From Clostridiales bacterium (lineage in GTDB: Bacteria; Bacillota; Clostridia; Saccharofermentanales; Saccharofermentanaceae): 12,641 bases of DNA. A program made the position numbers and the translations under genes. Under the pieces are notes generated by a model. The model had not been told where the DNA came from, made no database searches, and saw nothing but the letters and a program-made list of their open reading frames with translations. The stretch spans positions 1 to 12,641 of the forward strand of contig JAGAFH010000045.1 of NCBI GenBank assembly GCA_017612755.1. The letters are read 5' to 3'. Shown piece by piece: positions 2,893-6,984 of this stretch. Positions within the stretch are counted from its first letter, which is position 1. Every line of letters begins with the position of its first letter.

Positions 2893-3150
2893 TCAGCCCT
2901 TCATACTGTCAGACGCTTCACGGACTGCCCTGGCAAACTGGTCGGCACAGGATGTGGGCTTCATTCCGCAGGTGTTGCCGAGAAGGACCTTCTCGATATC
3001 GTCGACTTTCATTCCGTCCACCAGCTTTGAGATAGCCTTAAGGTTGCCGTTACAGCCTCCGGTAAAAGCCACATCAGAGATGACATCATCATCTATCTCA
3101 AAGTCTATCTTAACTGCGCAAACGCCCTTGGGTGTGTATGAATAGTGCAT
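2893..3150 (-). CDS. Small TSCPD-domain protein (TIGR03905-type)
   Basis: The 85-residue protein starts MHYSYTPKGVC and contains FTGGCNGNLKAI and a KPTSCADQFARAV segment. The latter is the TSCPD signature, with Ala replacing Pro. Free-standing proteins of this kind are known in Firmicutes; the domain also occurs at the C-terminus of some B12-dependent ribonucleotide reductases. The cysteines (11, 33, 61, 68) suggest metal or redox chemistry, but the function is unknown. I chose the ATG at 3150 because AGGGAG lies eight bases upstream. An in-frame ATG 63 bases earlier lacks such a site and would add a hydrophobic stretch absent from the family. It is the first gene of the leftward operon and divergent from pheA. 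Confidence 0.82.
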   Translation of the reverse strand: MHYSYTPKGVCAVKIDFEIDDDVISDVAFTGGCNGNLKAISKLVDGMKVDDIEKVLLGNTCGMKPTSCADQFARAVREASDSMKG

Positions 3151-3184
3151 GTATATTTCTCCCTTAATAAGTAAGTCTAATATG

Positions 3185-3213
3185 ATTTTGTATAATTTCA
3201 GGCGAAAATTCAA
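3185..3213 (-). promoter_or_regulatory. Possible leftward promoter of the TSCPD operon
   Basis: On the minus strand TTGAAT (3213-3208) is followed after 17 bp by CAAAAT (3190-3185), giving a start about 35 bases before the TSCPD ATG. The -10 match is weak and other AT-rich hexamers nearby could serve instead. A leftward promoter is nonetheless needed in this divergent region. Confidence 0.3.
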
Positions 3214-3254
3214 TAGTAATTATGGCTGATTACGGACTGTCTCCAAATTCCCCG

Positions 3255-3283
3255 TTGCATCACGGTGTTCTATGGCATATAAT
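3255..3283 (+). promoter_or_regulatory. pheA promoter
   Basis: TTGCAT (3255-3260), a 17-bp spacer and a perfect TATAAT (3278-3283) form a strong sigma-A-type promoter. The expected transcription start is 3290 or 3291, which is at or one base before the ATG of the leader ORF. The transcript would carry about 180 nucleotides of leader before pheA. Confidence 0.75.
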
Positions 3284-3290
3284 CAACCCC

Positions 3291-3377
3291 ATGAATCGCA
3301 ATGTCTTTACAGGTTTTGAATTTTTTGCAGGCTTTGGTTTTTTCTTTAGGAAAACGAAGTCCGGTTTCACTGCCTGA
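3291..3377 (+). CDS. Phe-rich leader peptide of the pheA attenuator (pheL-like)
   Basis: A 28-codon ORF starts at ATG 3291 and stops at TGA 3375-3377. Nine of 28 residues are Phe (positions 6, 9, 11, 12, 15, 17, 18, 19, 26), with three in a row at 17-19 (3339-3347). It lies between the promoter and a terminator hairpin directly upstream of pheA, the gene for Phe synthesis. This is the layout of enterobacterial pheL-pheA attenuation, although the peptide is not similar in sequence beyond Phe content. The leader uses seven TTT and two TTC codons, whereas pheA uses 18 TTC and two TTT. There is no Shine-Dalgarno sequence, and the predicted transcription start is at the ATG, so translation may be leaderless. 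The peptide itself probably has no function; the act of translating it senses charged tRNA-Phe. The attenuator role is inferred from the whole arrangement. Confidence 0.82.
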   Translation: MNRNVFTGFEFFAGFGFFFRKTKSGFTA

Positions 3378-3428
3378 AAGATTGTGAGTAGAAAACTAAG
3401 TACCGCAACAAGCTTCACAGTGAGACCG
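3362..3428 (+). promoter_or_regulatory. Antiterminator pairing of the pheA attenuator
   Basis: Bases 3362-3372 (CGGTTTCACTG) can pair with 3418-3428 (CAGTGAGACCG) over 11 contiguous base pairs, with one G-U. The second arm takes the last three bases of the 5' arm of the terminator plus its whole loop, so the two structures exclude each other. The first arm lies 14 bases after the last codon of the Phe triplet and just before the leader stop. A ribosome stalled at Phe 17-19 would leave it free; a ribosome at the stop codon would cover it. A weaker pairing (CAGGC 3328-3332 with GCCTG 3372-3376) could act as a protector. Confidence 0.72.
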
Positions 3429-3443
3429 CTGTGAAGCTTTTTT
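3410..3443 (+). terminator. Intrinsic terminator (attenuator) before pheA
   Basis: AAGCTTCACAG (3410-3420) and CTGTGAAGCTT (3429-3439) form a perfect 11-bp stem with an 8-base loop, followed by further T residues to 3443. The hairpin lies after the leader ORF and 28 bases before the pheA ATG. It would therefore stop transcription before pheA unless the alternative pairing forms. Confidence 0.88.
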
Positions 3444-3471
3444 GATGGAAACGAAAAAAGGAGAATGAACA

Positions 3472-4611
3472 ATGGTTAGTCAGGAAACACAAAACGAGAT
3501 CGCAAGGATCGACAAAGAACTCTCGAAGCTGGTAGCAAAAAGGCTCAAGCTCACCACAGAGTCTGAGTCGGTAATGACAAGAAGCGAAGCAGCTCTCGCA
3601 GGAAGAAGATATGAAAGGGAGATCTTAAACGGTATCGAATACGAAGGAGATCCCAACCTCGAAAGCTGCGAAAGAGTAATGTTCCAGACCTTGTTCAATC
3701 TCTCCCATTCCTACAGCGCATCCAACCTGACAAAAAGGTCAGAGCTGGCAGATATCATAGCGAAAGCTCTCGAAAACACTCCTAAAGAGTTCCCGAAAAA
3801 CGCCCTGGTAGCATGTCAGGGAGTAGAAGGAGCTTATTCCCAGATCGCTGCGGACAAGCTCTTCGCCGGGGCGGATATCATGTACTTCAGGACCTTCGAC
3901 GGAGTGTTCCAGTCTGTGGAGAGCGGATTCTGTAAATACGGGATCCTGCCTATCGAGAACAGCTCCTACGGATCCGTCACCCAGGTCTATGACCTTATGA
4001 GATCCCACAGATTCCATATCATCAGATCCATGAAGCTTCAGATAAACCATCGTCTCCTGGCTAAGCCCGGAACTAAGTTCGAAGACATAAAGGAGATCTT
4101 CTCCCACGAGCAGGCCCTCGGCCAGTGTTCCAAATTCTTAAAGGACAACAAGGACATCAAGGTGACCGTTGTGGAGAATACTGCCATGGCGGCACAGAAG
4201 GTAGCTGATTCGGACAGGACCGATATCGCTGCCATCTCCTCCCAGGACTGCTCTGCTCTTTACGGACTTGAAATAATAAAGGATGACATCCAGAACAGCG
4301 ACCACAACTACACCAGGTTCATCTGCATATCCAAGGATCTGGAGATCTATCCCGGCGCCAACAAGGCCTCCATCATGCTGGCCCTGGACCACACCCCCGG
4401 ATCTCTTTCCAACACCCTTGCAAGGTTTTCCTCCATCGGTCTTAACCTCACAAAGATCGAATCAAGACCTATCTCCGGAAGGGATTTTGAGTTCATGTTC
4501 TATCTGGATGTGGATGCTTCCATATACTCGGAACCCTTCGTTACACTACTGTGCCAGCTGGATAACGATCCGGCGGCCTTCACTTTCCTGGGAAGCTATT
4601 CGGAAGTTTAA
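3472..4611 (+). CDS. pheA: Bifunctional chorismate mutase / prephenate dehydratase (P-protein)
   Basis: The 379-residue enzyme converts chorismate to prephenate and then to phenylpyruvate, the precursor of phenylalanine. It has an AroQ-type helical chorismate mutase domain at about 1-90 (it opens with IARIDKELSKLVAKR), and a prephenate dehydratase domain at about 110-290. The latter contains GVEGAYSQ, LPIENSSYGSV, SHEQALGQC and the catalytic TRF at 281-283. An ACT domain follows at about 300-379 with HTPGSLSNTLARF and IESRP (329-333), the Phe-binding feedback elements. Length and domain order match E. coli PheA. AAGGAG lies eight bases before the ATG. The enzyme is probably cytoplasmic. It is a single-gene transcription unit, preceded by its own promoter and attenuator and followed by a shared terminator. 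Regulation should therefore be double: attenuation of transcription and allosteric inhibition by Phe. Confidence 0.96.
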   Translation: MVSQETQNEIARIDKELSKLVAKRLKLTTESESVMTRSEAALAGRRYEREILNGIEYEGDPNLESCERVMFQTLFNLSHSYSASNLTKRSELADIIAKALENTPKEFPKNALVACQGVEGAYSQIAADKLFAGADIMYFRTFDGVFQSVESGFCKYGILPIENSSYGSVTQVYDLMRSHRFHIIRSMKLQINHRLLAKPGTKFEDIKEIFSHEQALGQCSKFLKDNKDIKVTVVENTAMAAQKVADSDRTDIAAISSQDCSALYGLEIIKDDIQNSDHNYTRFICISKDLEIYPGANKASIMLALDHTPGSLSNTLARFSSIGLNLTKIESRPISGRDFEFMFYLDVDASIYSEPFVTLLCQLDNDPAAFTFLGSYSEV

Positions 4612-4667: not shown

Positions 4668-4895
4668 TCAGCTGTTTTGAAGCTTGGTGATCAGTTCAAA
4701 AAGAGCTGATGCGGAATTAAAGTTTTCCGGCAGAAGATCGTCTACATTGATATCTACATCGAATTCATCATTTACGTCACTGACGATGGAGATGATATCA
4801 AAGGAATCAAGGAGTTCATCGTCGATAAGCTTTGTCTCATTCTCAAAATCGATATCAGGTCTTACTGCGGACATGATCTTTAATAATTCTTCCAT
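4668..4895 (-). CDS. Acyl carrier protein (DltC/ACP-like)
   Basis: The 75-residue acidic protein is predicted to be helical and has LDSFDIISIV at about 29-38. The Ser at position 31 is the expected phosphopantetheine attachment site; DSF replaces the usual DSL, a variant seen in specialised carriers. Its size is typical of ACP or DltC. GGAG lies seven bases before the ATG, and the gene begins 17 bases after the acyltransferase stop, as the last gene of the operon. With an adenylating ligase two genes upstream, it probably carries an activated acyl or aminoacyl group for transfer by the neighbouring acyltransferase. It is probably not the housekeeping fatty-acid ACP, because no fab genes are adjacent. 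Confidence 0.88.
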   Translation of the reverse strand: MEELLKIMSAVRPDIDFENETKLIDDELLDSFDIISIVSDVNDEFDVDINVDDLLPENFNSASALFELITKLQNS

Positions 4896-4912
4896 TACTG
4901 TTCTCCTCTCAT

Positions 4913-5575
4913 TTACCCTTCCAGTATCTTTAGTGTTTCTTCGTTCATCTTACCTGTCAGAAGATCTTTGTACTTAAGGATCTTTTCGCTCTCCCAGTCC
5001 CACCATTTAAGTTCCAGGAGCCTTTTTATTATATCATCCGGGAACCTGTATTTTATAACTTTTGCAGGGACCCCCGCCACCACGGCATAATCAGGGACTG
5101 ACCTGGTCACTACAGCTCCGCTTCCTATGACTGCCCCGTTCCCGATGCGGAGTCCTTCTTTTCTGACGATAGAGACCCCCTGGCCGATCCACACATCATT
5201 TCCAATGGATATCATGGTCTCTTCCGGATGCTTTGAAAGCTTTCCTCCCAGCTTGTTGTCGATCCTGTAGGAAGGCATCATGGTCACGGCTTCATAGTCG
5301 TGTTCGTTACCTCCGATATCCACCATCCTGGAGATGCAGCAGTACTTTCCCACCTCTGCCCACATAATAGAAGTATCTTCTCCCGTATATGTCATATCCC
5401 CGATAACGGAAGACTGTATAAGATTTCTCTTCTCTATATCACAGTTTTCCCCAATAGAAGACTTAAGGACAAGACTGTCCCGGTCTATAGTAGATCCTGA
5501 ACCTATCTGACTGGCCTTTACCTTTGTATTCTCCCCTACCTTGTAGGGAGCATCATCCATCTTTCCTACCAGCAT
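4913..5575 (-). CDS. Left-handed beta-helix (hexapeptide) acyltransferase, CatB-like
   Basis: The 220-residue protein has hexapeptide repeats at about 12-85 (for example IGSGSTI, VIGDMTY, EVGKYCCI) and 122-172 (IGNDVWIGQGV, IGNGAVIGSGAVVT, VVAGVPAKVI). Between them lies a loop with GGNEHDYEAV. His92 there matches the catalytic histidine position of the xenobiotic acyltransferase family. The C-terminal tail is helical and contains WWDWE, which is also common in that family. Such enzymes transfer acetyl or longer acyl groups to hydroxyl or amino groups of sugars or antibiotics. The ACP next door suggests that the donor may be acyl-ACP rather than acetyl-CoA, as for LpxA; this is inference. AGAGG precedes the ATG, which is two bases after the ligase stop. 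Confidence 0.88.
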   Translation of the reverse strand: MLVGKMDDAPYKVGENTKVKASQIGSGSTIDRDSLVLKSSIGENCDIEKRNLIQSSVIGDMTYTGEDTSIMWAEVGKYCCISRMVDIGGNEHDYEAVTMMPSYRIDNKLGGKLSKHPEETMISIGNDVWIGQGVSIVRKEGLRIGNGAVIGSGAVVTRSVPDYAVVAGVPAKVIKYRFPDDIIKRLLELKWWDWESEKILKYKDLLTGKMNEETLKILEG

Positions 5576-5577
5576 AT

Positions 5578-6984
5578 TTATACCTCTGTCTTAAGTTCAC
5601 TGTATAAGATCTTCCCCGAAGGATTCTTGGGAATCTCAGGGATTACCAGGGTCTTATAAAGTCCCCTGCTTATTCCGATCTTCTCAAAAACATATTCAGA
5701 TGCTGCCTCCTGAAGGGACTCATCAACAAGATAAACAAGAAGACTGTCATCCTTTCCCGTACAGGCCACGTCAGAAGTCTGAAGTTCATTTTTGAGATTT
5801 CTCTCCACCTCATCCAGGTTGACCCTCTTGCCCACCACCTTGATGAATCTCTTTTTTCTTCCAACCACATAGTAATATCCGTCAGCATCCCTTAAGGCCA
5901 CGTCTCCCGTAGCAAGACGGCCCCTGTTCTCATCGCCCTTTGAAAGATCTTCCCTGCATTCCGCATAGCCCAAAGTTACATTGTCACCGTAGTAGACGAG
6001 CTCTCCGGGAACATCAGTTTCCGTAATGACATTTCCCTCATCGTCCACAAGTTCAAACCGGCCCCCGGGGATCTCTATTCCCATGCTGCCGTTTTTCTCC
6101 AATGACTTCTCAGGAGGAAGATATCCCATCCTGGCAGTGGCCTCCGAGGCTCCGTACATAACAACGAAATCACGGCCCGTCTCAGCTGCATATTCAGCGA
6201 AGACTTTATGGAGTTCCGGAGTGATCTTTCCACCCGCCTGGGTCATGGTCTTAAGGGTGGGAAGTTCTTTTTTCTTAAAGACCTTCAGCTTATTTATCAC
6301 CTCATACATGAAAGGGACTCCCGCAAAAGAAGTTGCCTCTTTCTCATTAAAAAGCTGCCAGAACTTAGGGGAATAACAGTTAAGACCCGTAAGGACCAAA
6401 GCCGCCCCTGCGCACAGGTGTGTATTTATGACGGAAAGTCCGTAAACATAGTTCATGGGAAGGGATGTAACAGCCCTCTCCTTCTCCGTTATACCAAGAT
6501 ATTCGATTATGGAACGGGTGTTGGATTCCAGGTTCCTGTAGCTCTGCCTGACAAGCTTGGGGCTTCCGGTGGACCCTGAAGTCGTAATGAGAAGCGCCAG
6601 TTCAGGAAACAGCTCACAGGGCTCATCATCCGAAGCCTTAAGGAGCACATATCCTTCCTTTGACCAGATCTCCTCATATCCTGAAAAGGTCTCCCCGGAA
6701 TCAGGCATCCAGATAAAGGAGGGCTTATAAAGATCTGTCATAGACACTTTAAGGTCGTGATGAAGGCCGCTGTCAACCATAACGGGAACGATCTTTCCGT
6801 TTATGCATCCCACATATCCGGCTATCGATGCAAGAGTATTTGATGCCATGATAAAGCATAAAGACCTGCCACCCATTTTTTCAGCTATCTCACGGGAAAA
6901 AGAACAGAGAGCACTGTAACTTACATCCCTGTTCTCTTCGATAATAGAGGTCCTGCCGCCAAACTTTTCTATATCAAAAAACAT
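5578..6984 (-). CDS. AMP-forming acyl/amino-acid ligase (ANL superfamily)
   Basis: The 468-residue protein has the ANL core motifs in order: the ATP-binding loop TTSGSTGSPK (134-143), MYGASEATARM (276-286), ATGD (358-361), the GRKKRFIKVVG hinge (375-385), and the C-terminal NPSGKIL whose Lys458 is the expected adenylation lysine. It is shorter than a typical acyl-CoA synthetase and close to DltA-like or stand-alone adenylation enzymes. It probably activates a carboxylic acid as an acyl-AMP and loads the ACP encoded two genes downstream. The substrate cannot be told from the sequence by eye. AGGGG lies seven bases before the ATG. It is the first gene of the ligase-acyltransferase-ACP operon and is probably cytoplasmic. 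Confidence 0.9.
   Translation of the reverse strand: MFFDIEKFGGRTSIIEENRDVSYSALCSFSREIAEKMGGRSLCFIMASNTLASIAGYVGCINGKIVPVMVDSGLHHDLKVSMTDLYKPSFIWMPDSGETFSGYEEIWSKEGYVLLKASDDEPCELFPELALLITTSGSTGSPKLVRQSYRNLESNTRSIIEYLGITEKERAVTSLPMNYVYGLSVINTHLCAGAALVLTGLNCYSPKFWQLFNEKEATSFAGVPFMYEVINKLKVFKKKELPTLKTMTQAGGKITPELHKVFAEYAAETGRDFVVMYGASEATARMGYLPPEKSLEKNGSMGIEIPGGRFELVDDEGNVITETDVPGELVYYGDNVTLGYAECREDLSKGDENRGRLATGDVALRDADGYYYVVGRKKRFIKVVGKRVNLDEVERNLKNELQTSDVACTGKDDSLLVYLVDESLQEAASEYVFEKIGISRGLYKTLVIPEIPKNPSGKILYSELKTEV

Follow-up and report, generated by a model that had tools for sequence, protein, structure and literature searches.

The question raised by this locus is what kind of switch controls pheA in a member of the Clostridia. 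T-box leaders (RF00230) are the usual device for amino-acid genes in Firmicutes; they occur in the genus concerned, but none was found in the pheA leader described here. The DNA under study is a stretch of 12,641 nucleotides, hereafter "the window". A sequence-only reading of it had proposed attenuation of the enterobacterial pheL-pheA type. We conclude that pheA is very probably governed by a ribosome-mediated transcription attenuator in which a leaderless mRNA encodes the leader peptide.

The relatives of the PheA protein identify the source genome as a Saccharofermentans-like metagenome-assembled genome of the Clostridia. The nearest named record is RUG11234, whose PheA is 94% identical to that of the window, and several close PheA relatives are labelled Saccharofermentans sp., a genus that NCBI places in the Clostridia. 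The lineage first given for the DNA, Lachnospiraceae, was thus mistaken. The pheA product scores 210.7 bits against PRK11898 and 193.3 bits against PRK10622; because both scores fall under the curated cut-offs, its name holds at the level of the family only. Adjoining pheA on the minus strand (window positions 4668-6984) is a small cluster for acyl-carrier-like, hexapeptide acetyltransferase-like and acyl-CoA ligase-like proteins, all below cut-offs; the acetyltransferase-like protein scores best against TIGR03308, at 145.5 bits. The divergent gene on the other side (2896-3150, minus strand) encodes a TSCPD-domain protein (TIGR03905, 115.6 bits, above the cut-off). The features of the pheA locus are as follows.

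3255-3260, plus strand: -35 element TTGCAT, weak, with three of six consensus matches; read from the sequence, most relatives having TTG... or TTTAC... at the same place
3278-3283, plus strand: -10 element TATAAT, perfect, 17 nt past the -35 element and 7 nt before the leader ATG; read from the sequence and from relatives
3291-3377, plus strand: pheL-like leader peptide ORF, MNRNVFTGFEFFAGFGFFFRKTKSGFTA, nine Phe among 28 codons, predicted to be leaderless; from the sequence, the alignment and model matches
3362-3372, plus strand: 5' arm of the antiterminator, CGGTTTCACTG, at the end of the leader ORF; from the fold of 3280-3428 and covariation
3410-3443, plus strand: intrinsic terminator, a hairpin with a U tract; from the terminator scan and the pairing in 31 relatives
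3418-3428, plus strand: 3' arm of the antiterminator, CAGTGAGACCG, the end of the terminator 5' arm and the loop; from the fold and covariation
3457-3464, plus strand: Shine-Dalgarno sequence of pheA, AAAGGAGA, in contrast with the leader ORF; read from the sequence
3472-4611, plus strand: pheA, chorismate mutase/prephenate dehydratase, the regulated gene; from profile search and homologues

The leader ORF runs from the ATG at 3291 to a TGA ending at 3377 (stop codon at 3375), and it reads as had been claimed: 28 codons with nine for Phe, three of them consecutive (codons 17-19). A longer in-frame start at 3222, which the ORF list gives for the same frame, was rejected as lying upstream of the promoter. 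We read the upstream regions of the first 110 pheA loci and, after dropping duplicates and three with too little upstream DNA, kept 99 non-redundant loci, 49 of the window's group and 50 from outside it. The succession of TATAAT, 6-9 nt, ATG and a Phe-rich short ORF is present at 43 of the 49 group loci, and this recurrence in the same place bears out the earlier judgment that chance is an unlikely origin. The leader was not found at the other six (L026, L038, L054, L055, L058 and L059). Alignment of 31 of the 43 leaders, those less than 92% identical (alignment A1), shows conservation of a coding type. Within the ORF (columns 1-63), each of the 27 gaps has a length divisible by three, gaps in the linker measure 1-9 nt, and conservation is lowest at the third codon position (0.53 vs 0.72 and 0.66). 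Further, Phe accounts for 449 of the 1437 codons in the 65 leaders found by the model described below, each of which has at least five. The Phe-rich frame and the terminator are therefore kept among relatives while the linker drifts, as the sequence-only reading had expected of a working leader, and this pattern points to translation of the ORF.

A covariance model of the transcribed leader (R1), built with no promoter in it, detects the element in 66 of the 85 genomes available for this group of gut and rumen clostridia, the genus of the window (37 of the 46 of good quality). A pheA-type match is present in 65 of these 66, and in all 65 pheA is the very next gene, 1-29 nt on. Among 103 genomes outside the genus, from the rest of the order, R1 found none under filters strict enough to overlook weak relatives. 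Of the 50 non-redundant loci outside the group, L082 alone showed a Phe-rich ORF followed by a terminator; L064, L065 and L109 have weak candidates that lack a terminator. In the relative G016, we scanned 1.99 Mb for a leaderless short ORF followed by a terminator and a gene, using a procedure that recognises 40 of 59 known group loci. Eight candidates emerged, of which three overlap at a single place; with control spacings the scan yielded 8 and 3. The pheA leader is the most biased (10 Phe in 28 codons), the next being 5 Ala in 11 and 7 Leu in 27, at the one overlapping place. In these 1.99 of about 2.9 Mb, the scan turned up no further leaderless leader with a bias equal to that of the pheA leader.

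These results bear on the simplest rival account, in which a U-rich stretch happens to read as Phe codons ahead of an ordinary terminator. The Phe codons are TTT and TTC and the region is T-rich, as such an accident would require; against it stand a frame conserved with gaps in threes over 31 leaders, the spread of the element over most genomes of the genus and into a second clade, and the first rank of the pheA leader in the G016 scan. We consider its probability negligible and rejected it, since conservation in practice refutes a chance origin. A genus-wide family of such leaders was likewise considered and rejected. The pattern TCACTGC..GCAGTGA occurs in at least 57 of 83 genomes and, among the matches listed, recurs before pheA and glmS. 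One more match is recurrent, in five genomes among the matches listed, and in L198 it lies inside a response-regulator-like coding frame; the others among the matches listed look single.

The intrinsic terminator previously placed between the leader ORF and pheA is indeed present at 3410-3443, with conserved pairs. Its stem of 13 bp (3410-3439) is followed by T's, and the terminator scan of a 701-nt stretch gave 2 sites, one of them weak and on the minus strand, against 0.6 expected. Over 31 relatives, 96.4% of cells in the terminator are paired, and double changes are found at 10 of 11 pairs.

A second helix competes with the terminator. With the leader folded up to 3428, CGGUUUCACUG (3362-3372) pairs with CAGUGAGACCG (3418-3428) over 11 bp; when the 3' arm of the terminator is included in the fold, the terminator form wins. 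The two folds, which have 3418-3428 in common and are mutually exclusive, are the alternative states of a classical attenuator. The fold made without the terminator 3' arm is not exceptional (z -0.95). In the 31 leaders, 84.8% of the antiterminator cells are paired vs at most 50.9% in slid controls, and 7 of 12 pairs have changed on both sides. Of five measures, two lie within reach of shuffling, which ignores relatedness (double-change pairs in 30 of 500 shuffles, further pair types in 98 of 500), and pairing often fails at the outer end of the helix (18 of 28 cells unpaired at column 73). Each leader's own antiterminator duplex averages -17.6 kcal/mol vs -13.6 kcal/mol with the partners of other species, a difference reached in 0 of 20000 permutations that ignore relatedness. 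For three leaders (L011, L037 and L039), most cross duplexes are at least as good as the own one, which ranks 26, 24 and 23 of 31. By reading, the pairing sequence has moved as a unit to GATGCTTCAC with GTGAAGCATC in L041 and L057, and to GGGTTCGCTG with CAGCGTAACCC in L003. These leaders, in which both arms appear to have shifted together, are the most telling cases for the antiterminator.

The placement of the stop and the Phe codons relative to the 5' arm was computed with a ribosome footprint that we took as an assumption from general background. On reaching the stop codon, a ribosome would cover the arm in 29 of 31 leaders; in the remaining two (L008 and L009), the core of the arm begins 17 nt beyond the stop and so escapes the assumed footprint. 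Stalling at any of at least three Phe codons leaves the arm free in all 31, although in L014 one Phe codon adjoins the arm. Also in all 31, the 5' arm of the terminator lies more than 12 nt beyond the stop.

We infer from this anatomy the transcription start, translation, stalling and response to Phe as follows. RNA polymerase would begin the transcript with the A of the leader ATG or a neighbouring nucleotide, and a ribosome would bind the emerging 5' end and translate the Phe codons. When Phe-tRNA is sufficient, the ribosome would reach the stop (3375) and cover 3362-3372, and the terminator at 3410-3443 could form. When Phe-tRNA is short, the ribosome would stall at Phe codons, most plausibly 17-19 or earlier ones. 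The arm at 3362-3372 would then be free to pair with 3418-3428, no terminator would form, and pheA would be transcribed. By its anatomy, then, the switch should turn pheA on when phenylalanine is short. The pheL-type reading offered earlier gains from conservation of both frame and terminator, and the covarying antiterminator, which that reading had not named, completes the switch; the dependence on Phe is predicted from the structure.

Might the terminator and short ORF do something else? They could simply insulate pheA, or give rise to a small RNA or peptide acting in trans, read-through into the gene being constitutive. There is precedent in the trp leader RNA of Sinorhizobium meliloti, which starts at an ATG and, according to the passages available to us, acts in trans as well (PMC7298713). 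A covarying antiterminator that includes the terminator loop would have no role in such an arrangement, and we regard it as most improbable.

Equally, the signal could be sensed by RNA or protein (a T-box, a riboswitch or an RNA-binding protein), leaving the Phe-rich ORF incidental. T-box matches are abundant in the genus: all 30 genomes searched have them, 28 with matches over the cut-off, and the window's own genome has 7. In the window itself, T-box RF00230 has no match at gathering and none is listed in 3150-3480 up to an E value of 10. In fact, the whole window contains no match to an Rfam family at or above that family's cut-off, and the best sub-threshold match of the leader is RF01859 (Phe_leader), at 22.1 bits with a gathering cut-off of 55. 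A T-box or other known RNA in the pheA leader was accordingly rejected by the Rfam search. Moreover, the coding-type conservation and the Phe bias of the ORF need translation as their explanation, and the likelihood of a sensor of this sort is very slight indeed. Because T-box matches are plentiful in the genus, the pheA leader is an exception and not a sign that T-boxes have been lost.

The preferred reading, an attenuator with a leaderless leader peptide, depends further on where transcription begins. The promoter had been called strong: the TATAAT -10 element is perfect, but "strong" was an overstatement, as the -35 element matches the consensus at only three of six positions, and a promoter scan by consensus listed none around the leader. 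The sets of 43 and 62 leaders were collected with a pattern that required TATAAT; because of this, the unbiased count of spacings is that of the 65 pheA-type leaders found by the promoter-free model R1 (nine glmS-type elements among its 74 matches were left out). TATAAT lies 6-9 nt before the ATG in 63 of these 65 (37 at 6 nt, 22 at 7, 3 at 8 and 1 at 9), and the remaining two carry TAAAAT there instead. As transcription generally begins some 6-7 nt downstream of a -10 element, the leader ATG is probably at or next to +1. The promoter geometry thus fits a leaderless message, which we predict on that basis.

The spacing is not peculiar to pheA. In the sample of G016 (L219-L258 and L292-L351; 1907 predicted ORFs in 1.99 of about 2.9 Mb), exact TATAAT lies 6 nt (28 times) or 7 nt (13 times) before ATGs near predicted ORF starts, and it occurs at each other spacing from 0 to 25 only 0-6 times. 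A regular minority of the messages of this genus thus appears to be leaderless. The search for Shine-Dalgarno words found none in the 65 leaders or at the G016 sites with 6-7 nt spacing, and looser motifs gave a Shine-Dalgarno-like word in 1 of 62 leaders; this lack is not independent evidence, because the -10 box fills the place of a Shine-Dalgarno sequence. In three of the relatives in which the attenuator was not found (L038, L055 and L059), TATAAT stands 7 nt before the ATG of pheA, and pheA itself may be leaderless there.

It could still be that the attenuator is the same and the message is not leaderless, with transcription starting further upstream or some nucleotides downstream and the leader, then preceded by a short 5' UTR, being initiated without the help of a Shine-Dalgarno sequence. 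The spacers of 8 or 9 nt in 4 of the 65 leaders, which leave a 5' UTR of up to about 3 nt, and the leaders that begin ATGATG would suit such a start. The nearly fixed distance of TATAAT in 63 of the 65 and the same spacing peak before other ORFs of G016 argue the other way, and we judge this variant unlikely.

An attenuator of this kind also appears to occur in a second clade, labelled Oscillospiraceae and reached through L082, where a Phe leader precedes pheA at 16 of 30 loci:

L354-L376, e.g. L365:2663-2792, minus strand in L365: second-clade leaders, found by reading pheA loci

These leaders encode a Phe-rich peptide of 17-18 codons, e.g. MRFGFTAEFSFFTFARQK, followed by a terminator, and the tail of a further one is present at a contig end (L369). 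As in the window, the end of the leader pairs with the 5' arm and loop of the terminator, and the gene is likewise pheA. Unlike the window's, the leader is led by a Shine-Dalgarno sequence and is not of leaderless type: a GGAG or GAGG word, counted by eye, stands shortly before the ATG in 15 of 16, and a promoter-like TTGACA/TATCAT was read some 30 nt upstream. Own duplexes average -17.7 vs -14.8 kcal/mol for cross duplexes (0 of 20000 permutations, ignoring relatedness); in L370, the exception, the own duplex is weaker than the cross mean. It would seem, therefore, that pheA comes under one kind of switch whose leader peptide is started in two different ways.

The Escherichia coli pheL-pheA region (RF01859), where such a switch is most familiar, resembles the window in its leader peptide with a run of Phe, its terminator and the gene that follows. 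It differs in that pheL is preceded by AAGGA, a word that the window's leader lacks, and in its pairing sequences, which in the window are TTCACTGC with GCAGTGA. Model R1 matches the second clade at 18.5-42.8 bits over its full or nearly full length at 16 of 17 loci (L364 in part only), and it matches the E. coli pheL region (L289) over its full length at 32.5 bits, above 14 of the 17 loci of the second clade. With E. coli pheL scoring this well, R1 cannot separate homology from convergence, either between the two clades or with the enterobacteria.

A related element of putatively leaderless type lies before another gene. R1 matches upstream of glmS in 9 of the 85 genomes (L141-L149; in L141 from about base 1898), and the element is followed by glmS, purF-like and dapL-like frames, named from reading their translations; TIGR01135 also identifies glmS in five of the nine loci. 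We read 30 glmS loci of the genus, including one whose upstream DNA comes to just 134 nt, and saw the element at five. Its peptide is MK[IM]IWFISY[AE]YAL, with the ATG 6 nt past TAAAAT, and its switch consists of TTCACTGC, GC[AG]GTGAAT (also given as GCRGTGA) and a terminator. We tentatively suggest, as a possibility of rather less than even probability, that the leaderless start is a working principle of the device and that the cassette has been copied and retuned. The ribosome would load once the first codons leave RNA polymerase, allowing ribosome-timed attenuation in a Gram-positive group, and the copy before glmS-purF-dapL would sense the translation of aromatic codons, or nascent-peptide arrest, rather than Phe supply for Phe synthesis.

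Parts of this device have precedents, here taken from titles, abstract openings and passages of the papers cited. The rnTrpL leader mRNA of S. meliloti trpL starts at the leader-peptide ATG (PMC7298713), Corynebacterium glutamicum ilvBNC is discussed in terms of leaderless mRNAs (PMC11857589), and the reference list of PMC10272879 includes work on leader peptides formed with no ribosome binding site. The first two are of leaderless type like the window's leader, but they belong to Alphaproteobacteria and Actinobacteria and to Trp or branched-chain amino acids. Outside the Proteobacteria, amino-acid-specific leader peptides with terminators include the His leader peptide of hisZ/hisS* in bacilli (PMC2965389), Listeria Rli60 (ilv; PMC5864092) and the Phe-coding Acholeplasma uORFC-13-1 before aroF (PMC8632094), a ribosome binding site being named for the latter two; a leucine-rich attenuator peptide serves branched-chain synthesis in Staphylococcus aureus (PMC5794164). 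The His leader, Rli60 and uORFC-13-1 differ from the window's leader in their hosts (Bacilli or Acholeplasma) and genes, and in the passages available none is described as leaderless or as controlling pheA. The earlier description of the device as "under-reported" is consequently fair, as amino-acid leader peptides of Firmicutes are rare but already reported in these excerpts; "first" would not be. Among the matches listed from open-licence PubMed Central, judged by titles, abstract openings and passages, we found neither a pheA leader peptide in Clostridia nor a leaderless attenuator in Firmicutes, nor the glmS copy. The mechanism is thus of the known pheL type, and its leaderless start, its clostridial setting and the glmS copy were not met in the literature so sampled.

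Ribosome-mediated attenuation needs RNA polymerase and ribosome to move in step. An excerpt of PMC7858274 reports, with reference to Johnson et al. 2020, that Bacillus subtilis has mostly lost this coordination and that many bacteria may have lost it; the same source offers a short stop-to-terminator distance as a proxy for runaway transcription. For 121 terminator stems from four pieces of G016 that were joined, the distance from the stop to the first G/C of the stem is 20-30 nt in 68 and below 15 nt in 22, counts that relaxing the stem length hardly altered; the E. coli control comprised only 7 terminators, 2 of them at less than 10 nt. These distances are the opposite of the short-distance proxy and look like coupled transcription and translation, although they are suggestive only.

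One amino-acid pathway gene appears to be served by a leader peptide in genomes with several T-box matches each. A genus-wide clostridial attenuator, together with a second clade in which the leader is led by a Shine-Dalgarno sequence, offers a direct test of coupling in Clostridia. The two clades would also allow what a leaderless start adds to such a switch to be tested.
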